From Candidatus Zemynaea palustris (GTDB lineage: Bacteria > Vulcanimicrobiota > Vulcanimicrobiia > Vulcanimicrobiales > Vulcanimicrobiaceae), in NCBI GenBank assembly GCA_003134695.1, contig PLCB01000058.1:1-64000 (forward strand): DNA of 64,000 nucleotides, in the 5' to 3' direction. Of the stretch, positions 9,838 through 47,165 are shown piece by piece. The notes under the pieces were generated by a model, which was not told where the DNA came from, ran no database searches, and saw only the letters and a list, made by a program, of their open reading frames with translations. Each line of letters starts with the position of its first letter. Positions within the stretch are counted from its first letter, which is position 1. A program made the translations under genes and the position numbers.

Positions 9838-12399
9838 ATGTCGGTCCCGACGAGCGGCGCGCTCATCCCACGCCCGGCTCTCGCGGCGGCCCTGCGCATT
9901 GCACTCGACCGGCAGGCGGTGATCGCATTGGTCGCCCCCGGAGGCTACGGGAAGACTTCGCTCGCGGCGCTCGCGCTCTCCGGCGACGAGGCGCCGCCGA
10001 CAGCCTGGTACACGGCCCAGCGGTGGCATGCGGGTGAATTCGTCGAGCCGCTCGTCGCCGCGATTCGTCGCGAGCGCCCCGACTTCGGAAGACTCAGTTT
10101 AGCGCTGGCACACCGTCGCCCCGAGGGCGACGATGGAGAGATCGCGCGCTGGGCGCAGCGCCTCGGCGCCACCTTCGCCGCGGAACTCGGTCACGTCGAG
10201 AGTCGCATCGTCATCGTCGTCGAGGACGTCGACTTGCTCGCCGACGATGCAGCCTTCGCCGAATTCCTCACCGGCACGACACGCCTCTTGCCGGACCAAG
10301 TTCGACTGCTGCTCATCGGACGGCGCTTGCCGCCGCTTCCGCTGGCCGAATGGATCGCACAAGATCGAGCGCAACTCTTTGACTCGACCGATCTCCGTTT
10401 CGACGCCGACGAGATTCGCGAAGTCGCGGCGCGCCACGGACGTTCGCTCAACGCCGACGAGGCGCAAAAAATCGAGTCGGATTTCGAGGGCTGGCCCGCC
10501 GGGGTCGTGCTGACGTTCGGCGCCGGGAATCGCATCATACCGAGTGCCGACGGCGCGCTCGAAGTGACGCACGCCCTTCTTCTCGATGCGAACCTCGCAA
10601 CGCTTGATTCCGCTTCGGTCGAATTTCTCGAGAAGACCGCCGTGTACGAAACGCTTTCCAAGCGCGTACTCGAACGCGACGCATCGCTCGACGACGTCGC
10701 GATTCATTTGCGCGCACTCGAAAGCCAGGGGGTGATGCTGACGGCCGTCCGCCCCGGAGAAGTGTACCGGCTCCATCCGCTCTTCCGCGAGGCGCTGCTC
10801 GAACGCTTGCGGCGCCGCGGCGGTTCACGTGGCGTCGCCTCACTCCATCGTCACGCGGCGGCGATCCTCGAAATCGCCGGCGCGTTTCCCGCTGCGCTTT
10901 TCCATTTCGAACACGGCGAAGACGACGACGCGCTGATTGCTTTTCTTTCGCGGCGCGCCTTTGAATTGTTCGCGAGCGGCTTCGGCCGGCGCGCGACGCA
11001 CCTGGCGCGCCGCTTGAAGCTTCGCGACGATACCGACCGGTCCGTCCTGGCGCGGCTCGAAGCGATGCTGGCGCGCCAGCACGGCGAGCCGGAAGCGGGC
11101 CAGCATCTCCGCGCCGCCCTCGCAACGGTCCCGAAGGCCGGCGACGCCGCCGCCGCGCTTCTTCCTCTATACCTGTTGCAAACCGAGGATCGGTTGGCCA
11201 AGCGCGAGGCGGTCGACGCCGCCGAGCTCGAAGCGCTGCTCGACCTGGCGACGGCGGCCGGACCGTTGCTCGAATCCGACGGCCGCACGTTTTCCGGTTG
11301 GGCCGCGGCGATGGGCCACGATTTCGTCGCCGCGCACGAGCAGGCACGCCGAGCGTTCGGACTCGCCGGCGACGATCCGGTGCGGCGGACGCGCGCCGGC
11401 GTGCTCGAAGCCTACGTCTCGACCTGTCTCGGGGATCTCGCCTCGGCCTCCGCGACCCTCGACGCAAGCTTACGCGAACTCGAAGGAACCGATCACCTCG
11501 TTTTGCTTGCAAACGTCATGGGCTGGTATGCGCGGCTCGCGCTCTTGTGGGGCGACGTCGCTGCGGCGCGCGATTATGCCGGACAGGCCGAGTCACTCGC
11601 GCAACGGCTCGATCTCTCATCCGATCTCGCCGCCATTTCACTCGCGCTCGCCGAGGTCGACGGATACGACGGTGCGGTCGAGCCATGCGCTCGAGCGGGG
11701 GGACGCGCGCGCGACCTCGCCGCCGCCGCCTGGTACGCAACCGATCGGGCTCGCGCTCCGGCGCTGACGGCGCTGTACGAAGCGCGCGCGCACTTCGTCG
11801 CGGGCGACATCACGGAAGCGCTGCGCGCGGCAAACGCAGCGCTGCTCGCTCGGGACATTCCTCCGCCGCAGCGCGCCTCACTCGAAAGCGAAGTCGCTGC
11901 CTATGCAGCGCTGGTCGACAAGCGCGAAGCCTCCCCCGGCATCGAGCGCATCGTGAAGACACTCGGCGCTGCGACGCCGAGCGACGCGCTCGACGCGACG
12001 GCGCTTGGGACGGCACGGGCGGTCGTCGCGCTGCTGGCGAGCGCTACGAACGCTCGATCCGCGAACATCCCGTTCGCCTCCGAGAGCGAGCGCGCGTACG
12101 GCGAATTGATTGCGCGACGCTCCGATCCGGCCCTCGTCCTTTTCAAGCACGCGTTCGCCGGCGCAAAGCCCGCGGGCGGCCCCGTCCCGCAACCGCCGGG
12201 CTCGCAGTTGACCAAGCGCGAAGGTGAAATCCTCGAGTTGATGGCCCAAGGGTTGACCAACAAAGAGATCGCGCAACGCTTCGTCGTCAGCCCGCGGACC
12301 GTCGAAACGCACGTTGCACGTGTCCTTTCCAAACTCGGTGTCGGGACACGAACGCGCGCCGTCGCGATCGCGCTACGAATGGGACTGGTCTCACGATGA
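9838..12399 (+). CDS. MalT/LuxR-family STAND transcriptional regulator
   Basis: An 853-residue protein with the MalT layout: P-loop NTPase at the N terminus (Walker A VAPGGYGKTS, Lys39), a winged-helix/ARC-like region, a long alpha-helical repeat region (about 400-780) and a C-terminal LuxR helix-turn-helix (about 790-850, with TKREGEILELMAQGLTNKEI). Such proteins are ATP-dependent activators gated by a ligand or partner. The ATG at 9838 gives a normal spacing to Walker A. It is divergent from the efflux operon (187-base intergenic stretch) and heads an operon with the DRHyd-TPR-S gene 19 bases downstream. It could control either neighbour; the ligand is unknown. Confidence 0.9.
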   Translation: MSVPTSGALIPRPALAAALRIALDRQAVIALVAPGGYGKTSLAALALSGDEAPPTAWYTAQRWHAGEFVEPLVAAIRRERPDFGRLSLALAHRRPEGDDGEIARWAQRLGATFAAELGHVESRIVIVVEDVDLLADDAAFAEFLTGTTRLLPDQVRLLLIGRRLPPLPLAEWIAQDRAQLFDSTDLRFDADEIREVAARHGRSLNADEAQKIESDFEGWPAGVVLTFGAGNRIIPSADGALEVTHALLLDANLATLDSASVEFLEKTAVYETLSKRVLERDASLDDVAIHLRALESQGVMLTAVRPGEVYRLHPLFREALLERLRRRGGSRGVASLHRHAAAILEIAGAFPAALFHFEHGEDDDALIAFLSRRAFELFASGFGRRATHLARRLKLRDDTDRSVLARLEAMLARQHGEPEAGQHLRAALATVPKAGDAAAALLPLYLLQTEDRLAKREAVDAAELEALLDLATAAGPLLESDGRTFSGWAAAMGHDFVAAHEQARRAFGLAGDDPVRRTRAGVLEAYVSTCLGDLASASATLDASLRELEGTDHLVLLANVMGWYARLALLWGDVAAARDYAGQAESLAQRLDLSSDLAAISLALAEVDGYDGAVEPCARAGGRARDLAAAAWYATDRARAPALTALYEARAHFVAGDITEALRAANAALLARDIPPPQRASLESEVAAYAALVDKREASPGIERIVKTLGAATPSDALDATALGTARAVVALLASATNARSANIPFASESERAYGELIARRSDPALVLFKHAFAGAKPAGGPVPQPPGSQLTKREGEILELMAQGLTNKEIAQRFVVSPRTVETHVARVLSKLGVGTRTRAVAIALRMGLVSR

Positions 12400-38941: not shown

Positions 38942-39337
38942 CTAGACTCTCCGCCGCTTCGGCGGGCGGCAGCCGTTGTGCGGGATCGGCGTGACGTCCT
39001 TGATGAGCGTGATCTCGAGGCCGGCGGCCTGCAGCGAGCGGATCGCGGCTTCGCGTCCCGCGCCTGGGCCCTTCACGTAGACCTCGGCGGTCTTCATCCC
39101 GTGATCCATCGCTTTGCGCGCGACGGCTTCGGCGGCCATCTGGGCGGCGAACGGTGTCGATTTCTTCGAGCCCTTGAAGCCGAGATTGCCGGCCGAGGCC
39201 CAAGCGATGACGCTGCCCTGGTTGTCGGAGATGGTCACAATCGTGTTGTTAAAGGAAGAGTGGATGTGGGCGACGCCGAGCGCGACGTTCTTGAACTCGC
39301 GCTTCTTGCGCGCCTTGGGTTGTTTCTTGGCAGCCAA
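38942..39337 (-). CDS. rpsK: Ribosomal protein S11 (uS11), TTG start
   Basis: 131 residues from a TTG at 39337 with CGGAGC five bases upstream; longer frames run into the leader. The family core [20 protein letters not shown] and the C-terminal [16 protein letters not shown] are present. In most bacteria rpsM lies directly upstream; here the first gene upstream on the same strand is 7.4 kb away from rpsM, so rpsK is now first in its transcript. Confidence 0.96.
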
Positions 39338-39515
39338 ACGTGCTCCGAATTTTATCCTAGCCCCGCGCAACGAGCCTGGGGTGTCGTCGCCTCGACCGGC
39401 CCCGCCCGTGGGGCGACCCGATCTTGCTACCGGACGAGCGGCGAGGTCGTCCGTCCGCGCGCGAAGCGCGCCCGTCTGGGCCACTTCGCGTCGGAGGCTG
39501 CCTGGGACAGCCGAG
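39338..39515 (-). promoter_or_regulatory. Long structured leader of the rpsK-rpsD-rpoA-rplQ-trp message
   Basis: About 178 transcribed bases precede rpsK. They contain a strong hairpin with arms GCGCGC around TT (39459-39472) and nearby GGACGA/TCGTCC pairing. As S4 often represses the alpha operon through a leader fold next to its first gene, this leader could carry a relocated control site. I cannot match it to a known S4 leader class. Confidence 0.35.
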
Positions 39516-39520
39516 GACCG

Positions 39521-39549
39521 ATTGTACCCTAAGGCTCGGTCTCGGTCAA
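39521..39549 (-). promoter_or_regulatory. Strong sigma70-type promoter for the rpsK operon
   Basis: Minus strand -35 TTGACC (39544-39549), exact 17-base spacer, -10 TACAAT (39521-39526). It lies on the left edge of the inserted block and gives the downstream half of the alpha operon, with trp, its own start point. Confidence 0.72.
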
Positions 39550-39711
39550 CCGGAAGTATCGCCGGTCGCGAGAGGTCCTCCCATTGAGCCTCCAATCCGA
39601 GCGCCACCGACGGCGGCGTCGCCTCGTTACACACTAGGTGAGAGGCCGAAAAAGGGCAGCGCCATCGCCGCGCTGAGCGTCAACCGCCTCGCCGGGCAAG
39701 CAAGCCGGCTC

Positions 39712-41226
39712 TTGACGCGAACCGCCCACCCCAACCCGCCGCTGTTTCTGATCACGGCGACGGTGATGCTCGGCGTGATCATGGCGATCATCGACTCGAC
39801 GATTGTCAACGTCGCGCTCAACGACATGGCGGGCAACCTCGGCGCTTCGACCGACGAGATCGCCTGGGTCGCGACCGGCTACATCCTCGCCAACGTGGTC
39901 GTCATGCCGCTCAACGGCTGGCTGACCGCGCTGTTCGGGCGGAAACTTTTCTATGCGGGGTCGCTCGCGATTTTCACGATCGCCTCGCTGATGTGCGGCC
40001 TCTCCCACTCCCTGAGCGAAATCATCATCTGGCGCGTCGTGCAAGGTGTCGGCGGCGGCGCGCTACAGCCGACGGCACAAGCGATTCTGTTCGAATCCTA
40101 TCCCGTCGAAAAGCGCGGACAGGCGATGGCGGTCTTCGGGCTCGGCGCGATGGTCGGTCCCGCGATCGGCCCGACGTTTGGCGGCTGGCTGGTCGACAAT
40201 TTTTCGTGGCCGCTGATCTTCTTCATCAACATCCCGATCGGAGCGGTCGCGCTGTGGATGACCTTCCGGTACATCGCGGACCCGTCGTACATCAAGAAAC
40301 CCGAACGCGGCGCCGACTGGCTGGGCCTCGGGTACATGACGGCCGGCATCGCCTCGCTGCAATACGTTCTCGAGCGAGGCCAGCGTGAGGATTGGTTCGA
40401 CTCGAGCACGATCGTGATTCTGTCGTGCGTGGCCGTCTTCGGGATCGGGGCGTTCGTGATCCGAGAGCTGCGCGATCCGTATCCTTTCGTCGACTTGCGG
40501 GTCTTCAAGTCGTATCCGTTCACCGTGGCAAGTCTGATCGGCGTCGTCAGCGGCTTCGGTTTGTTCGGGCTGAACTTGGTGCTGCCGCTGTTTTTCCAGA
40601 CCGTCTTGGGCTTTAGCGCATGGGACACCGGCCTCACGTTGTTGCCCGGGGCGCTCGCGACCGCGATCAGCATGCCGATTGCCGGACGACTCGCCGGTTC
40701 GGTCACTCCGAAGATTCCGGTCGCTTTCGGCCTAGCTGTCTTTGCGCTCGGGAGTTGGCTCTTGGGCGGCCTCAATCAGAACGCCGGGTATTGGGACATC
40801 TTTTGGCCGCGCGTCCTTCAGGGATTCGCGCTCGGTTTCTTGTTCGTTCCTCTGACGACGGCGGCGCTGGCGGCGATCCCGACCAATCTCATGGCGAACG
40901 CCACCGGCATCTACACCTTGGTTCGCCAGCTCGGCGGCAGCCTCGGCATCGCCGTGCTCGAACTCCTGATCTTACGGCGACAGGATTACGTCCAGCAGTT
41001 GCTCTCGGCAAACGTCAGCTTGAGCAATCCGAACGTCTCCGATTTCCTACGCAACGCACCCGACCGAGCCGCGGCGCTGGCGCAGCTGGCGCAACAAGTC
41101 GACGTCAACGCGGTCGTCCTCGCCTACGACTACGCGTTCCGCGTCTGCGCAATCTTGTTCGCGCTCTCGATTCCGATGGTTCTGTTCTTGCGCAACCCGA
41201 TGCGCGACCGCCCAAAGCCTAGCTAA
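39712..41226 (+). CDS. DHA2-family multidrug exporter (MFS, EmrB/QacA type)
   Basis: About 504 residues with 14 hydrophobic segments. It shows the DHA2 first helix IMAIIDSTIVNVALNDM, motif A GWLTALFGRKLF and motif C GAMVGPAIGPTFGGW, so it should export drugs or metabolites in exchange for protons. The start is uncertain: no ATG is in frame before helix 1; TTG 39712 gives a standard length, while TTG 39424 and CTG 39673 are alternatives. It runs against the ribosomal cluster and its stop overlaps the stop of the convergent small gene by two bases. Confidence 0.88.
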   Translation: MTRTAHPNPPLFLITATVMLGVIMAIIDSTIVNVALNDMAGNLGASTDEIAWVATGYILANVVVMPLNGWLTALFGRKLFYAGSLAIFTIASLMCGLSHSLSEIIIWRVVQGVGGGALQPTAQAILFESYPVEKRGQAMAVFGLGAMVGPAIGPTFGGWLVDNFSWPLIFFINIPIGAVALWMTFRYIADPSYIKKPERGADWLGLGYMTAGIASLQYVLERGQREDWFDSSTIVILSCVAVFGIGAFVIRELRDPYPFVDLRVFKSYPFTVASLIGVVSGFGLFGLNLVLPLFFQTVLGFSAWDTGLTLLPGALATAISMPIAGRLAGSVTPKIPVAFGLAVFALGSWLLGGLNQNAGYWDIFWPRVLQGFALGFLFVPLTTAALAAIPTNLMANATGIYTLVRQLGGSLGIAVLELLILRRQDYVQQLLSANVSLSNPNVSDFLRNAPDRAAALAQLAQQVDVNAVVLAYDYAFRVCAILFALSIPMVLFLRNPMRDRPKPS

Positions 41227-41432
41227 ATGTGAATGTGAGGGAGCGTGATACGGGGGAGCTTGACATGGGGGGTCTTGACATGGGGAGTCTTGACATGGGG
41301 AGTCTTGACATGAGGGAGCTTGATATGGGGGAGCTTGATCGCATCTGCCGCAGCCGGTTTCGGCAGGGCTACGATCGCCAGCATCGAGGCCGCCGCCGCC
41401 GTCATCGCGAGTTTTGAAATCAATTTAAGCAT
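41223..41432 (-). CDS. Small secreted K-x-P-H-V repeat protein
   Basis: 69 residues from the ATG at 41432 (AAAGG seven bases before). The signal peptide LKLISKLAMTAAAASML ends near KPAAAD. The mature part is a pentapeptide array with units such as KLPHI, KTPHV and KLPRI, alternating Lys/His with Pro, probably an extended rod that may bind metal or anionic polymers. Leader and signal are near-copies of those of the next gene upstream on the same strand (41517-41996). No family is recognised. Confidence 0.7.
   Translation of the reverse strand: MLKLISKLAMTAAAASMLAIVALPKPAAADAIKLPHIKLPHVKTPHVKTPHVKTPHVKLPRITLPHIHI
41226..41339 (-). repeat. 15-bp tandem repeat array, about 7.5 units
   Basis: Units of 15 bases on the plus strand, for example GAGCTTGACATGGGG (41256-41270) and AGTCTTGACATGGGG (41286-41300), follow each other without spacers. 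They encode the pentapeptide repeats of the small secreted protein; each unit differs by one to three bases, so the array probably expands and contracts by slippage or recombination. Confidence 0.85.
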
Positions 41433-41445
41433 AGAAAGACCTTTC

Positions 41446-41459
41446 GTGCGCGCGCGCAC
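41446..41459 (-). repeat. GC palindrome in shared leader, copy 1
   Basis: GTGCGCGCGCGCAC, a perfect 14-base palindrome, followed by GAAAGGTCTTT up to the ATG. The same palindrome and ribosome-binding stretch occur at 42010-42023 before the paralogous gene. It could fold as a hairpin just upstream of the ribosome-binding site. Confidence 0.6.
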
Positions 41460-41516
41460 CATCGTCTGATCATACCCTAATCGGCGGCAACTGAACCGCG
41501 TTTACTCGGTCCGTCT

Positions 41517-41996
41517 CTAATGGTTGTTGCCCTGGCCGTTGTTGCCCTGGCCGTTGCCGCCATGCTTGTTGCCCTGGCTGTTGTTGCCAGGCTTGTTGTT
41601 GCCATGGCCGTTACCGTGACGATGCGTGCGGTCGAACTGTCCCGTTCGTTTATAATCGTAGGTGTACGACTTGGGATTTGCTCTCGGACTATAGTAAGCG
41701 TACTGGCCCGAGGAGTACTGACCGTTCGAATTCGGATAGAACGTCTGGCCATTCGGCATCACGATCCGACCATTGCCGTAGATCGTTCCGCCGTTTTGGG
41801 TGTAACCGACGATCGTATTCGCCGGTTGTTGCGAATTCTGGTAATTGCCATAGAGGGTCTGTTGACCGATGGCGGCGACGATCGTGCTCAGCAGCGTGTT
41901 GAGGTTCTGTGCCGCAGCCGGTTTCGGCAGGGCTGCGATCCCCAGCATCGAGGCCACCGCCACCATAATGGCGAGTTTTGAAATCAATTTGGACAT
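41517..41996 (-). CDS. Small secreted protein with Gly/Asn/His-rich tail
   Basis: 159 residues from the ATG at 41996. The signal peptide SKLISKLAIMVAVASML is nearly identical to that of the downstream gene, but the mature protein is different: a Gln/Asn/Tyr/Gly-rich middle (GNYQNSQQPANTIVGYTQ; GNGRIVMPNGQTFYPNSNG) and a tail of GNGHGNN and GNNGQ units. The composition suggests a surface or matrix protein that may bind metal by His. No family is recognised. Confidence 0.7.
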   Translation of the reverse strand: MSKLISKLAIMVAVASMLGIAALPKPAAAQNLNTLLSTIVAAIGQQTLYGNYQNSQQPANTIVGYTQNGGTIYGNGRIVMPNGQTFYPNSNGQYSSGQYAYYSPRANPKSYTYDYKRTGQFDRTHRHGNGHGNNKPGNNSQGNKHGGNGQGNNGQGNNH

Positions 41997-42009
41997 ATAA
42001 AGACCTTTC

Positions 42010-42023
42010 GTGCGCGCGCGCAC
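42010..42023 (-). repeat. GC palindrome in shared leader, copy 2
   Basis: The same 14-base palindrome GTGCGCGCGCGCAC as at 41446-41459, followed by the same GAAAGGTCTTT. Farther upstream both copies also keep AAACGCGGTTC and TAGGGTA about 11-13 bases apart, which may be a shared promoter. Confidence 0.6.
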
Positions 42024-42061
42024 TACAGGTCATGTACCCTACGACGACACTCGAACCGCGT

Positions 42062-42280
42062 TTACCGTTTGCCGCGGTGACCGAGATGCCAGCCGTGCTT
42101 CGGGCACGAATATGCCGACAAACGAACCGTGCTCTGAGGGATCGCGCGTTCGGCGAGCTTCTTGGTCGAGAACGCCGCCTTCGGCGAACCGTTCTTGTTG
42201 TAGCACGAACGCGAACCGCCGCTGCGCCGTCGAGGGCTTGGTTGGTCCACGACGCATCTGATTCGCGAGCGGCGTCCCAA
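42062..42280 (-). CDS. Small Cys/His protein, possible zinc-binding
   Basis: Up to 72 residues; the true start may be GTG 42250. The C-terminal half has the form of small zinc proteins: SCYNKNGSPKAAFSTKKLAE, then YSCPKHGWHLGHR. Two Cys and two or three His could hold one metal ion. An overlapping frame (42039-42257) is judged a shadow as it lacks this pattern. It stands alone between the secreted pair and the HD-GYP genes. No function is assigned. Confidence 0.45.
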   Translation of the reverse strand: MGRRSRIRCVVDQPSPRRRSGGSRSCYNKNGSPKAAFSTKKLAERAIPQSTVRLSAYSCPKHGWHLGHRGKR

Positions 42281-42308
42281 TCCTCGCGCCCGGCTGCGAC
42301 CGGTTCGG

Positions 42309-43241
42309 CTAGCGGGCGCTTAGGATCGCGCCGAGCGCGGAGACGATACCAGGATCGAACTGCGTCTCGGAACCGAGGCGCAAGCGCTCGAACGCTTCGG
42401 GCGCGGTGATCGGCTCGCGGTGCGGCCGACGGCCGACCATTGCGTTGAACGAATCGGCGACCGCGACGATCCGGGCTTCGAGCGGAATCGCCTCGCCTCG
42501 CAAACCGTCGGGATACCCGCCGCCGTCGTAGCGTTCGTGGTGCCAGCGAATCGCGTTCGCCAGCGGCGCCAGCAGCGGATCTTCGAGCGCCATCGCCTCG
42601 CCGGCGAGAACGTGCGTGCGCACGAGATCGATTTCGTCCTCGCCCAGCGGACGTGCGTCCGAGACGATCCCTACCGGCAACGCCAACTCGCCGATGTCGT
42701 GGATGAGGCCGCAACGGCTGACGAGCGTGACGTCGGCATCGGAAAGCGCGAGCTGGCGCGCGAGGCGCTTCGCCCAAGCGGAAACCTGACGGGCATGATC
42801 GCCGGCGTAGATCTCGTCACTCGACAGCCGGGTCACGATATAATTGATCGCGCCGTCGATGTCGGCGATGACCTCGGGACGCCTCACCGAAGCGGCGATC
42901 GCCGGCGCCGTCGGGCGGAGTGCGCGCAGCGGAGCCGCAGCGACATCTCCGAATTTTTTCTTCTCCACGAATTTCGCGAACGCTTGGCCCGCGTCACTGA
43001 AGAACGCGCTAACGTCGTCGTCACGCGAGTCGTTCGCAGCTTGCGATTCGACCCAAACCGCCAATCGCGCGGGCTGCTGATCGGCGACCGCGTCGAGATA
43101 TGCGTCGACGAACGAGTGCGCCAAGGCTTGGTGCAGAAGCCTCCGTTGCGGCGCGCTCACAACCTCCAAAGCCGAATCGATCAATTCGGTCCGGGCGCCG
43201 CGGAGCGTTTCCAGGACGGCAGCGTTCCTTGCGTTACTCAT
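42309..43241 (-). CDS. HD-GYP-like domain protein with degenerate HD motif
   Basis: 310 residues from the ATG at 43241 (ATGA overlap with the upstream HD-GYP gene). Residues 1-130 are a helical region shared with its paralogue; the C-terminal half has the HD-GYP layout: CGLIHDIGELALP, HVLAGEAM, WHHERYDGGGYPDGL and RIVAVADSFNAMVGRRPH. HD-GYP proteins hydrolyse c-di-GMP. Here the conserved Lys of HDxGK is Glu, so catalysis is uncertain while the metal ligands are largely kept. Confidence 0.85.
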   Translation of the reverse strand: MSNARNAAVLETLRGARTELIDSALEVVSAPQRRLLHQALAHSFVDAYLDAVADQQPARLAVWVESQAANDSRDDDVSAFFSDAGQAFAKFVEKKKFGDVAAAPLRALRPTAPAIAASVRRPEVIADIDGAINYIVTRLSSDEIYAGDHARQVSAWAKRLARQLALSDADVTLVSRCGLIHDIGELALPVGIVSDARPLGEDEIDLVRTHVLAGEAMALEDPLLAPLANAIRWHHERYDGGGYPDGLRGEAIPLEARIVAVADSFNAMVGRRPHREPITAPEAFERLRLGSETQFDPGIVSALGAILSAR

Positions 43242-44182
43242 CGTTGCAGGACCACCTCGTGCATCGCCGCGACAATCTCCGGGTCGAACTGCGAACCTGT
43301 GTGGAGTTGGAGTTGTGCGAGCGCGTCCGAGGGCGCCATCGCCGGCCGATAAGGACGGCGGCCGATCATCGCGTTGAAACAATCGGCGACGGTAACGATG
43401 CGTGCCGCTAGCGGCACCTCGTCGCGCTCCCTCCCATCTGGATAACCGTGCCCGTCGATCCGTTCGTGATGGGCGCGAACGATCAGTGAAAACTCCCCGA
43501 GACGTTCGTCCTCAAGAATAATCTGTTCGCCGTAAGTCGTGTGCTCGCGCATCGTCACCCACTCGGCCTCGGTCAACTTGCGCGGCGCTTGCAAGATCGA
43601 CGGCGGCGTGGTCACCTTACCGACGTCGTGAATCATTCCGGCGCGCGCGACGTACGTCGTCTCTTTCTCCGAGAGCGAGAGGCGCCGAGCGAGTCGCCCG
43701 CACCAGCTCGAGACAGAGCGCGAGTGCTCCGCCGTCAAGGGATCGGCACCTTCGAGACGCGCCAGCATCCCGCTGACTGCGGCATCGACTTCGTCGACGT
43801 GCTCGCGGGCCGCGGCCCGCGTCGTCCGAGGTTTTTGCAAGACCTCGCGAAGCGAATCTTCGACGGAGCGCAGGGGCTTGCGCTCGCGTTCGGCGACGCC
43901 TTGCGCTGCGAAAAAATCGTCGAGCGAGCGGCACGCTCCGCGGAACAGCTTGGTCACGGCCGGCGTGTCGGCGTGCGCGTCGCACATCCGATCGACCCAA
44001 TCGACCAACTGGGCGGGGGAGCCGGCGGCGGCCGAGTGCGCGTAAGTGTCGACGAACGTGCGCGCCAGCAACTGAACGATGAGGTTTCGCTCGCCGCTTG
44101 GGACCTCGCGCATCACCGCGCTCGCCAAGTCCAGGCGGGCTTCGGTGCGAGCTTCGGAGCGAGCGATCAGCGCAAGGCTCAT
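43238..44182 (-). CDS. HD-GYP domain c-di-GMP phosphodiesterase-like protein
   Basis: 314 residues. The N-terminal half (1-130) is helical with no known domain; the C-terminal half has HD-GYP signatures AGMIHDVGKVTTPPSIL, HTTYGEQI, AHHERIDGHGYPDG and RIVTVADCFNAMIGRRPY, with all metal ligands and the HDxGK lysine present. It probably cleaves c-di-GMP. It is a tandem paralogue of the next gene and overlaps the STAND gene by ATGA, so sensor and hydrolases form a three-gene unit. Confidence 0.88.
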   Translation of the reverse strand: MSLALIARSEARTEARLDLASAVMREVPSGERNLIVQLLARTFVDTYAHSAAAGSPAQLVDWVDRMCDAHADTPAVTKLFRGACRSLDDFFAAQGVAERERKPLRSVEDSLREVLQKPRTTRAAAREHVDEVDAAVSGMLARLEGADPLTAEHSRSVSSWCGRLARRLSLSEKETTYVARAGMIHDVGKVTTPPSILQAPRKLTEAEWVTMREHTTYGEQIILEDERLGEFSLIVRAHHERIDGHGYPDGRERDEVPLAARIVTVADCFNAMIGRRPYRPAMAPSDALAQLQLHTGSQFDPEIVAAMHEVVLQR

Positions 44183-46515
44183 GCCGAGTTCCCCGCGCCG
44201 ACCGCGAGCGGCTCAACGCATGCCGGCGGCAACATCTCGAGCATTCGAGCGTAACCGCCGAAATCGTCGCGGCGCAGCCGCTCGAGCGCGCCGAACAATT
44301 CCACGTGATCCGCCTCTCCCGCACGCCAGTCGGCCAACGCATCGACTGCGCCGGCGAGAGCGCGGAGGCGGCGGCGATGCTGCGGCACGTCACGCTCGAC
44401 GCGCTCGAGGATCGCCTTGGCGGCGCCGAGCTGTCCGAGCATGACCTCGGCGAGCGCGGAGAGGATCCGCGCGCGCCACAAGAAGACGTTGGTCGCCTTC
44501 GGGAAACGATCGAGCTTGCGCATCGCCGCCAGGGCCCGGAGGGCTTCGGCCGTCGCGCCCGCAGCCGTCGCGTGCACCGCGATCTCGGCCCAGCGCAGCG
44601 CGCGCCGCTCTGATTCCTGGTGCTGGCCGGCGCTCGAGGCGAGGATGCGATGCGCGCGCGCAAAGTCGCCTTGACAGGCGATCTGCAGAACCTGAGCCGG
44701 GAGCAACGCCTGCGTCGCGCAGCGAGCGCTGTACTGGACTTCGAATTCGCTCAAGTCGCGCTCGATCTGCGCCACCGACGCGACGTCGCCGCGCTCGACT
44801 TCGATCTCGTAGGCGGCGACGAGCGCGTAGACCTGCTTTTCGACGCTGCCACATTTCGCGCCGTAGACCGCGATCTGCCGCAAGTATTCGGTCGCGCGCG
44901 CACAGTCTTCGTCGACGTCGATCGCGACGTTGTACAGGACGCTGAGCGCTCCCGACGCGACCTCGTGGGCGCCGATGCGCGCCGCGAGGGTCGAGGCGGC
45001 CTCCGCAAACTCCTTGGCCCGTTCGAACTTGCCTTCGCGCAGGGCCACGAACGCCGTCTGGTGGTACACGCGGGCCCGGACCGCATCGTCTTCGACGCTT
45101 TCCAGACTCAGCATCGCGCGGTCGAGCCACTCGTGCGCCTCGTCAAAGCGATTCTCGAGCGCGGTTCCGGCGGCCCGGGCGGACATGATCTTGGTGCGCA
45201 GCGGCGCAGGAATCTCGTCGTAGTCAGCGTCGGGCTCGAGCACGCTCAGTGCATCGGGGCGGCCGCGACGGAGCAATTCGCACCCGTACCAGTAGCGAAT
45301 TTGCGTCCGCTCCCACGGCGAGTTGCACGCCTTGAGCGCATTTTGGAAATAGGCTTCGCTGACGTCGGTATGTCCGCCCAGCGCCGCCGACATCCCGAGC
45401 AGCGCGAGGATCGCGGGGTTGGTCGCTCGGGCTTCTTCGGAAAGCGCGGCGAGCGCGTCGTGCAGCAGGTGGGCGTGCTCGCTCTCGAGCGAGGCAAAAC
45501 CGTGGCGTTCGATGATGCCGAGGATCGCGCGCTCTTTCCCGGCGGCGATGGTCAACTTGAGCGCATCGGCGACGTTACCGGAGTCCTCAAGGGTTTGCGC
45601 GGCGCGCAAGCTGAAGGCGGTGCGATCGCCGGACGATGCCAGCTTCGCGAGCAAGAAGCGCCGGAAGCGCGGAATATAATCGGTGGAGTCGATTTCGAAG
45701 ACGTGTGGGAAGCGCTCGCGCAGTTCGGCGAGCGGCGCCCCGTCGAGTCCGGCCACGAGCGCGCCCTCGAGCGCGGCAGCGCGATCGGCCCACCCGAGCG
45801 AGCGATAGATTTCGTCGAACATCGGCTCAAAGCGTTCGGCGCGCCCGGTCTCCTCGAGCGCGACCACCCGCGGCCGTCGCAACAGCATGACAAAATCGCC
45901 GACGACGCCGTCGGCGAAGCGACGCAGACGCTCGACTTCTTCGGCGTCGGTACCGGGTCGAAGGGCGGCAGCGATTTCCCTCGCCTCGACAGGCGTCAAC
46001 ATGAGCGCCTGCTTGTCAAAGGGTAGCGCGGCGACGCCATGCGCCAGCCAGGCCGCGAGCGGCACGTCGTGCGAGTGCTCGGAAGCGATGACCCAGCGAC
46101 AGTCCGCCGGCGAATTCTCGGCTGCCGCGAGGATGAAGTGCGCGATGCGCGGGTCGCTCGCCTGATGGAGGTCGTCGACGAGGATCGCGGTGCGAACGTC
46201 CTTGAGGTGCCGGACGAACCAGGTCGCTAGGGCCGCGGCGGGCTGTCGCGCTTGCAACGCACGCTCGTAGGCACCGGCTAAGGTCTGCAGCATCTCCGGG
46301 ACGTGCGCCGAGAGCGCCTTGACGATCTCGGAGGCGAAACGCGCGAACGACATGTCCTCGGTGATCGCGACGTACGCGCTCGCACGGCGCAAAGCGTAAT
46401 CGGCCAAGAGCCGGCTCTTCCCGTAACCTTCGGGTGCGACGAGCAAGGTGACGTGCTGCGTTCCGAGCGAGCGTGAGAGCTCGCGTGCGGGAAGTCGCGC
46501 GACGGTCGTCTGCAC
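44179..46515 (-). CDS. MalT-like STAND protein without DNA-binding domain
   Basis: 778 residues from GTG 46515, aligned with the start of the 9838-12399 regulator; a GTG at 46569 would add 18 residues. It has Walker A VAPEGYGKSR, Walker B-like TAILVDDLHQA and a long helical-repeat part, but ends after the repeats (VEPLAVGAGNSA) and lacks the LuxR helix-turn-helix of its relative. It is therefore more likely a sensor or scaffold than a transcription factor. It is coupled to two HD-GYP proteins, suggesting ATP-gated control of c-di-GMP breakdown. A short reading frame with a good ribosome site ends one base before the GTG. Confidence 0.82.
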   Translation of the reverse strand: MQTTVARLPARELSRSLGTQHVTLLVAPEGYGKSRLLADYALRRASAYVAITEDMSFARFASEIVKALSAHVPEMLQTLAGAYERALQARQPAAALATWFVRHLKDVRTAILVDDLHQASDPRIAHFILAAAENSPADCRWVIASEHSHDVPLAAWLAHGVAALPFDKQALMLTPVEAREIAAALRPGTDAEEVERLRRFADGVVGDFVMLLRRPRVVALEETGRAERFEPMFDEIYRSLGWADRAAALEGALVAGLDGAPLAELRERFPHVFEIDSTDYIPRFRRFLLAKLASSGDRTAFSLRAAQTLEDSGNVADALKLTIAAGKERAILGIIERHGFASLESEHAHLLHDALAALSEEARATNPAILALLGMSAALGGHTDVSEAYFQNALKACNSPWERTQIRYWYGCELLRRGRPDALSVLEPDADYDEIPAPLRTKIMSARAAGTALENRFDEAHEWLDRAMLSLESVEDDAVRARVYHQTAFVALREGKFERAKEFAEAASTLAARIGAHEVASGALSVLYNVAIDVDEDCARATEYLRQIAVYGAKCGSVEKQVYALVAAYEIEVERGDVASVAQIERDLSEFEVQYSARCATQALLPAQVLQIACQGDFARAHRILASSAGQHQESERRALRWAEIAVHATAAGATAEALRALAAMRKLDRFPKATNVFLWRARILSALAEVMLGQLGAAKAILERVERDVPQHRRRLRALAGAVDALADWRAGEADHVELFGALERLRRDDFGGYARMLEMLPPACVEPLAVGAGNSA

Positions 46516-46516
46516 G

Positions 46517-46624
46517 CTACGACCGGATCCCGGCGCTGTCTGCGCTCGGCAGGGAGGAAATGCGGCCACCGGCTACCTTCGTAAGAACCGGCAATATGGA
46601 AGGTGGGCCGAACTGATAGCGCAT
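46517..46624 (-). CDS. Putative 35-residue leader peptide coupled to the STAND gene
   Basis: ATG 46624 has GGAGG four bases upstream, the best ribosome site in this region, and opens a 35-codon frame (MRYQFGPPSILPVLTKVAGG to start) ending at TAG 46517-46519, one base before the GTG of the STAND gene, which has no ribosome site of its own. This fits translational coupling by reinitiation. A sequencing frameshift joining both frames is an alternative. Confidence 0.4.
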   Translation of the reverse strand: MRYQFGPPSILPVLTKVAGGRISSLPSADSAGIRS

Positions 46625-46648
46625 CGATCCTCCGTGAAGAATGTGGCT

Positions 46649-46675
46649 GATCACAGAGTACCTTCGGGTGTGATC
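46649..46675 (-). promoter_or_regulatory. Hairpin in the leader of the STAND gene
   Basis: GATCACA (46649-46655) and TGTGATC (46669-46675) form a seven-pair stem around 13 bases, ending about 15 bases before the GGAGG that serves the leader peptide. It may affect ribosome access or stop transcription. Confidence 0.35.
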
Positions 46676-46737
46676 CAAAACAAGTGACGCCGCTCACCTG
46701 CTCGGTCTCCGGCTAAGAACTTAGCATATCCCAAAAG

Positions 46738-46755
46738 GTGTGACCACGGTCACAC
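46738..46755. promoter_or_regulatory. Palindrome between rpsM and the STAND gene
   Basis: A perfect 18-base palindrome with core TGTGA-N6-TCACA, identical in form to a Crp-family operator. It lies eight bases after the rpsM stop and just before a possible -10 (TATGCT on the minus strand, 46725-46730). As a hairpin followed by CTTTTGG it could also be a weak terminator ending the ribosomal transcript. Confidence 0.4.
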
Positions 46756-46763
46756 GCGGGCGG

Positions 46764-47165
46764 CTAACGCTTCGGCGGAGTACCCGGCGGCGGAGCGGCT
46801 TTCTTGCGGGCGCCGACGGTTTTCTTCGGGCCCTTGCGCGTGCGCGCATTGGTCTTCGTGCGTTGACCGCGCACCGGGAGGCCGCGACGATGACGCAGGC
46901 CGCGATAACAACCGATGTCGGTGAGCCGCTTGATGTGGCCGGCGACCTCGCGCCGCAGATCGCCCTCGACTTTCACGGAGCCGTCGATCGCGTCGCGCAG
47001 ACGTTTCTCTTGTTCCTCGGTGAGATTCTTGACCCGAATGTTCGGGTCGACGCCGGTCTGCTTGAGGATCTTCTGAGCGGTCGGAAGCCCGATCCCGAAG
47101 ATGTAGGTCAGCGCGACCTCGATACGCTTCTCGCGCGGTAGATCGATGCCGGAAATACGTGCCAT
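46764..47165 (-). CDS. rpsM: Ribosomal protein S13 (uS13)
   Basis: 133 residues with [19 protein letters not shown], the helix-hairpin-helix [11 protein letters not shown] and the basic tail [19 protein letters not shown]; the C terminus has a short Pro/Lys extension. It contacts tRNA and L5 across the subunit interface. One-base overlap with rpmJ. This is the last ribosomal gene before the inserted block. Confidence 0.97.

Follow-up and report, generated by a model that had tools for sequence, protein, structure and literature searches.

A MalT-type STAND ATPase without a DNA-binding domain and its HD-GYP partners in a family of Candidatus Eremiobacterota

STAND ATPases act, among other outputs, by binding DNA, by causing cell death or by cyclising nucleotides, and in MalT the binding of a ligand brings about nucleotide exchange and a change of oligomeric state. 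Here we describe a unit encoding a STAND ATPase and two HD-GYP proteins, HDG1 and HDG2, in a 64,000-nucleotide stretch (the window) of the genome of Candidatus Zemynaea palustris (2.7 Mb assembly, 61 contigs), a member of the little-studied phylum Candidatus Eremiobacterota. With MalT and the other LAL regulators the window STAND shares a MalT-type P-loop module and, putatively, a helical repeat part, and LuxR-bearing STANDs are found among its relatives within the family; unlike those regulators it has no helix-turn-helix (HTH) domain and is accompanied instead by an HD-GYP protein, which in some relatives is fused to it.

The HD-GYP proteins likewise have described counterparts. HDG1 has the HD-GYP fold and motifs of the c-di-GMP phosphodiesterases PmGH and PA4781, but both HDG1 and HDG2 possess another N-terminal domain and a STAND partner, and HDG2 is devoid of the essential lysine. 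V-cGAP3, in which an HD and an HD-GYP domain act on 3′3′-cGAMP, is the closest solved sequence to HDG1, although it is a single chain with no STAND. The role proposed below for HDG2 resembles that of DvhD, an HD-GYP protein which binds c-di-GMP without hydrolysing it (PMC13090378); DvhD has, however, lost the HD and HH motifs, both of which are retained in HDG2, where the lysine is missing. A globin-like domain, as is tentatively proposed for HDG1 and HDG2, precedes the HD-GYP domain in a globin-coupled sensor of Vibrio fluvialis (PMC10882959), and the stressosome N-domains of the RsbR kind (3zta and 2bnl) are among the fold matches of the HDG N-domain, which differs from the globin-coupled and RsbR domains in having no conserved histidine and in being coupled to a STAND. 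All components are of known kinds, and it is the wiring of a STAND to an HD-GYP protein that appears to be new; in the literature covered, which was mainly open-access, no description of a STAND coupled to HD-GYP or to c-di-GMP was found, Eremiobacterota included.

Layout of the unit and its STAND ATPase

The three genes are co-directional on the minus strand, in the order STAND (44179–46515), HDG1 (43238–44182) and HDG2 (42309–43241). As the original prediction held, they are joined by ATGA overlaps, at 44182–44179 between the STAND and HDG1 and at 43241–43238 between HDG1 and HDG2, and the STAND has no HTH, neither a GerE match in the Pfam search nor a match to the HTH model of the family. 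The start of the STAND had to be moved: ATG 46624, where it had been placed, is out of frame and opens a separate leader ORF of 35 codons (46517–46624, minus strand), which has a GGAGG site and ends one base before GTG 46515. The open frame of the STAND extends to GTG 46569. The same-genus genome G001 has an identical ribosome-binding site and ATG, which there begin a 25-codon leader with an ATGA overlap with the STAND ATG. Because of this arrangement in both genomes, the STAND is probably coupled to the leader and starts at GTG 46515, which gives a protein of 778 residues. The ribosome-binding site of the leader is strong, and its G001 counterpart encodes a different peptide but is likewise coupled to the start of the STAND.

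Walker A and Walker B motifs are both present in the window STAND. Its match to Pfam AAA_22 is just over the cut-off (27.4 bits, cut-off 27), the top model is NCBIfam MalT (1.3e-10) with a score of 40 bits that is far below the cut-off of 537, and the TPR_12 and TPR_8 matches are weak and stay under their Pfam cut-offs. Between the window genome and G001 the dN/dS of the STAND is 0.28 and 0.18 for two parts of the protein. The STAND at 9838–12399 of the window, named in the original prediction as the LuxR-bearing relative, is remote, with a top local match of 30% identity over 196 residues and a place on a distant branch of the tree; the closest LuxR-bearing relatives are found elsewhere in the family.

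Pairing of STAND and HD-GYP genes across the family

The distribution of the unit was surveyed in 137 stretches of related genomes. Of 148 STAND-like ORFs, 124 entered the tree and 24 were dropped for covering fewer than 550 model columns or scoring under 100 bits, among them pieces of G001:C143, which is interrupted by masked stretches; five further STAND matches (G060, G064, G067, G072 and G110:C43) lay outside the survey. Of 60 related genomes, 39 have relatives of the STAND; none was found in the 19 genomes beyond the order (G041–G059), and the matches end at the order level. A taxonomic scan with six close STANDs returned six loci, three labelled Candidatus Eremiobacterota, two UBP12 (both from one genome, the same-genus G001) and one Rhodospirillales, a label which conflicts with the position of that locus among these relatives. 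The STAND/HD-GYP pair is conserved across a Candidatus Eremiobacterota family.

The same does not apply to the complete trio, for which a conserved three-gene order had been anticipated. Among the loci examined, the order STAND, HDG1, HDG2 occurs in the window genome only, and at the orthologous G001 locus the STAND is followed by the HDG2 orthologue alone, with HDG1 absent. Tandem HD-GYP genes after a single STAND were met in one other of the 137 stretches, G019:C51, where the STAND bears LuxR, and conservation of the trio was rejected, so that by the first yardstick set with the original prediction the pair alone holds; G017:C12 consists of two separate STAND/HD-GYP pairs. An obligate complex of HDG1 and HDG2 is therefore unlikely to be general. 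In G019:C51 (L126:3557-5221) the two HD-GYP proteins have the motifs QREWFDGRGYP and, in the shorter one, HHERVDGRGYP, so that an intact and an altered HD-GYP may have been paired here in parallel.

In the STAND tree the window protein belongs to a clade of 37 members (SH-aLRT 98), of which 32 are without the LuxR HTH and five keep it. All 28 members of the sister clade bear LuxR and none has an HD-GYP gene downstream, 26 of them having at least 1.5 kb to inspect. In the outgroup, LuxR is present in 55 of 59 STANDs and an HD-GYP gene lies downstream of 42, never closer than 81 nt, where distances, here as throughout, are counted between the stop of the STAND gene and the first HD-GYP residue aligned to the model, not a start codon. 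The four HTH-less STANDs outside the window clade comprise two at a contig edge, one long-branch outlier and L094, in which a frame change breaks the STAND and LuxR is found in the next frame.

Among the 32 HTH-less clade members the HD-GYP domain is fused to the STAND in three and encoded directly downstream in 26, in 21 of these within 60 nt and mostly overlapping; the other three lie less than 1 kb from a contig end. Tight coupling, by fusion or close spacing, is seen in 24 of 29 HTH-less pairs as against 1 of 41 LuxR-bearing ones (Fisher p 8e-13, a value that ignores relatedness; the count excludes five LuxR-bearing rows whose HD-GYP gene lies some 2.85 kb off), and the remaining five HTH-less pairs are spaced by 65–176 nt. 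The sole tightly coupled LuxR-bearing member, G029:C81, has the weakest HTH of the 88 scored (35.9 bits, the next-weakest being 53.9 and the median 88.7), as expected of a decaying domain. An independent replicate is given by one clade of eight, in which the three HTH-less members with sequence downstream overlap the HD-GYP gene (−31, −19 and −7 nt), their three LuxR-bearing sisters are 94, 155 and 160 nt away from it and the remaining two are near a contig edge. Provided that the HTH was never regained, the tree calls for two or more losses of it. A single loss, as read from a first tree of 69 STANDs in which 22 of 22 clade members had no LuxR, was dropped because the larger survey and a more sensitive HTH model revealed the HTH in five of the 37.

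The three natural STAND::HD-GYP fusions (1119, 1117 and 999 residues) are open frames with no masked letters, each with the conserved STAND end followed by the HD-GYP N-domain, and they fall in two separate parts of the STAND tree. Furthermore, STAND and HD-GYP distances are correlated (r 0.73 for 32 clade pairs and 0.87 for 67 pairs); none of 2000 permutations reached such values, and 13 genomes have at least two STAND/HD-GYP pairs. From the occurrence of both proteins in one chain and from their correlated distances we infer that STAND and HD-GYP are cognate partners in contact. The 999-residue fusion comes from the window's own genome (G000:C17, L069:5259-8255); it has a damaged Walker A and HHVGE, a gene for a 764-residue GGDEF protein lies just upstream, and it is possibly a pair turned into a pure scaffold or sensor.

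The HD-GYP proteins HDG1 and HDG2

HDG1 and HDG2 are 36% identical, and both match Pfam HD_5 well above the cut-off of 27.2 (118.8 and 124.8 bits) and contain the motif HHExxDGxGYP. In HDG1 the catalytic motifs and metal ligands are intact (HDVGK and HHERIDGHGYP). HDG2 has HDIGE and HHERYDGGGYP, as the original prediction had noted for the first of these motifs, and in the alignment the glutamate replaces the HDxGK lysine equivalent to Lys225 of PmGH, while the positions of the binuclear metal ligands, counted on the alignments, are retained. A glutamate also stands at the position of PmGH Asp183 in the window HDG2, where the G001 orthologue has aspartate. The orthologue carries HDVGE, and with HDxGE in two genomes a sequencing error was rejected. 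In PmGH, the mutations K225A and D183A abolished activity (PMC4159591).

In the HD-GYP tree HDG1 falls in the intact lineage (support 99/84) and HDG2 with its G001 orthologue in a degenerate lineage (98/93) that also includes the 999-residue fusion. The HDG2 orthologues are 68% identical with a dN/dS of 0.28, a value near those of the STAND, the intact type being lower at 0.085. As HDxGE occurs in two genomes, the dN/dS is 0.28 against 0.085 and HDG2 stands alone after the G001 STAND, HDG2 is, as judged from these sequences, retained under relaxed but still purifying selection. Since PmGH cannot do without the lysine that is missing here, HDG2 is probably a subunit that binds nucleotide without cleaving it, our first choice, with a relic as the alternative. 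The predicted division into an active and a regulatory subunit is thus partly borne out: the catalytic residues of HDG1 are kept, and HDG2 has lost the lysine while keeping metal ligands under purifying selection, but the trio in which the two would act together is not general. Walker A is lost in two of three STANDs with strongly degenerate HD-GYPs and in one of 34 others, and this joint loss, small as the numbers are, fits an ATPase and a phosphodiesterase serving one function.

An AF2 model of HDG1 built on an eight-sequence alignment (pLDDT 85.9) places residues 124–314 closest to PmGH (Z 23.7, rmsd 2.8, 186 aligned), DvhD (Z 23.4, rmsd 3.7, 189 aligned) and PA4781 (Z 22.5, rmsd 3.0, 190 aligned), while by sequence the top solved match is the 3′3′-cGAMP phosphodiesterase V-cGAP3 (3.7e-39, against 5.5e-26 for PmGH). 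P0002 weakly matches an N-terminal stretch of the V-cGAP3 chain, which suggests, at the sequence level, a paired unit of an altered and an active HD. Because the window's genome has eight GGDEF matches, the substrate is likely c-di-GMP, although 3′3′-cGAMP is also possible given that V-cGAP3 is the closest solved sequence; an HD-GYP in a genome with no cyclase could be rejected on the same count. GGDEF genes were sought as regular neighbours and found near only six clade loci, hence not in general.

The two proteins share an N-terminal domain of about 120 residues for which Pfam gave no credible match in eight such domains. Modelled alone (pLDDT 84.7), it consists of five helices, and its top VIA-align match is 3zta, a domain of a stressosome protein (Z 10.8, rmsd 3.3, 111 aligned), with photocobilin, ApcE and, lower, RsbR 2bnl (Z 7.8, rmsd 3.5, 108 aligned) among the others. 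The top rows are nearly all globin-like, although such Z values can arise by chance for helical domains, and a Foldseek search of the domain returned nothing significant (best E 0.14). No conserved histidine was found in the eight domains, so no haem is expected. With caution, the models point to a non-haem globin-like signalling domain.

Models of the unit and its genomic setting

The explanation that we consider probable as a whole is that a MalT-type STAND has given up transcription as its output in favour of a phosphodiesterase partner of the HD-GYP type, which it controls by contact. Binding of a ligand to the putative helical repeats would, as in MalT, set off nucleotide exchange in the ATPase module and a change of its oligomeric state; the STAND would then make contact with the N-terminal domain, tentatively non-haem and globin-like, of HDG1 and switch the hydrolysis of a cyclic dinucleotide, probably c-di-GMP, by that protein, while HDG2, in which glutamate replaces the essential lysine of HDxGK, would most likely bind the nucleotide without hydrolysis and tune the complex. 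Control by protein contact, as originally predicted, draws support from the fusions, the co-divergence and the coincidence of HTH loss with overlap or fusion. Counted against it are that operon overlap can serve stoichiometry alone, that HDG2 may be in decay, as its sister lineage is degenerate, and that five HTH-less pairs are spaced more widely and the trio is not conserved. A broader version is tentative and rather doubtful: a family of STANDs would repeatedly have left transcription for ATP-driven control of cyclic-dinucleotide breakdown, with a complex, in the window made of one hydrolysing and one nucleotide-sensing HD-GYP, that senses the same messenger as it breaks down and exerts feedback on its own ATPase.

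That HDG2 and the lineage of the G000:C17 type are decaying relics, the unit working as STAND and HDG1 only, is a reading of some weight, even if we hold it to be the less probable one, and it is compatible with contact control of the pair. In the sister lineage the HD-GYP is degenerate, as is Walker A in two of three cases, and the dN/dS of HDG2 exceeds that of the intact type; it is still well under 1, however, the metal-ligand and GYP positions are kept, and in G001 HDG2 is the sole HD-GYP after an intact-looking STAND. Control might also run in the reverse direction, the HD-GYPs acting as nucleotide sensors that gate a STAND whose output would be, for instance, the binding of another protein. 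Degenerate HD-GYPs do remain attached to STANDs, even fused to them, and DvhD serves as a c-di-GMP receptor (PMC13090378), but the full catalytic motifs in most clade HD-GYPs and the absence of any other recognisable output domain in the HTH-less STAND make this improbable.

Mere co-expression, with HDG1 and HDG2 as ordinary phosphodiesterases and operon neighbours of the STAND that do not contact it, would agree with the outgroup pairs being at least 81 nt apart and with the ATGA overlap being frequent between bacterial genes; the fusions, the co-divergence and the link of HTH loss with coupling argue against it, and we regard it as quite improbable. STAND ATPases with fused effectors do exist among defence systems, and the HD domains have weak Cas3-HD matches. 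Still, the HD domains are full HD-GYPs, the pairs co-diverge as resident regulators do and the window STAND matched none of the PADLOC families at E 0.01, on which count a defence STAND was rejected; an anti-phage function is highly improbable.

If the STAND does control its HD-GYP partner by contact, a DNA-binding output would have been lost as the HD-GYP became tightly coupled, turning a transcription factor into a second-messenger controller with a living intermediate. The natural fusions, those of G029 included, provide single-chain proteins for work on structure and activity, and the pairing of an HDxGK with an HDxGE subunit makes it possible to test whether a pseudoenzyme controls the breakdown of c-di-GMP.

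The unit is situated just after rpsM, and together with two other genes it parts rpsM from rpsK. Between rpsM and the STAND no consensus promoter was found against 0.5 expected, which says little. The rpsM–rpsK stretch (38942–47165) is an insertion site in the family, about 7.4 kb in size here and roughly 3.4–15 kb in many family members; it is below 1 kb in G020, in G022 and in the order-level relatives and does not exceed about 0.1 kb in class-level ones, and the STAND unit lies between the two genes only in the two same-genus genomes. Within 41431–42023, a gene for a small secreted Gly/Asn-rich protein (41517–42023) is followed by an apparent second copy, broken, which is preceded by the same upstream motif.
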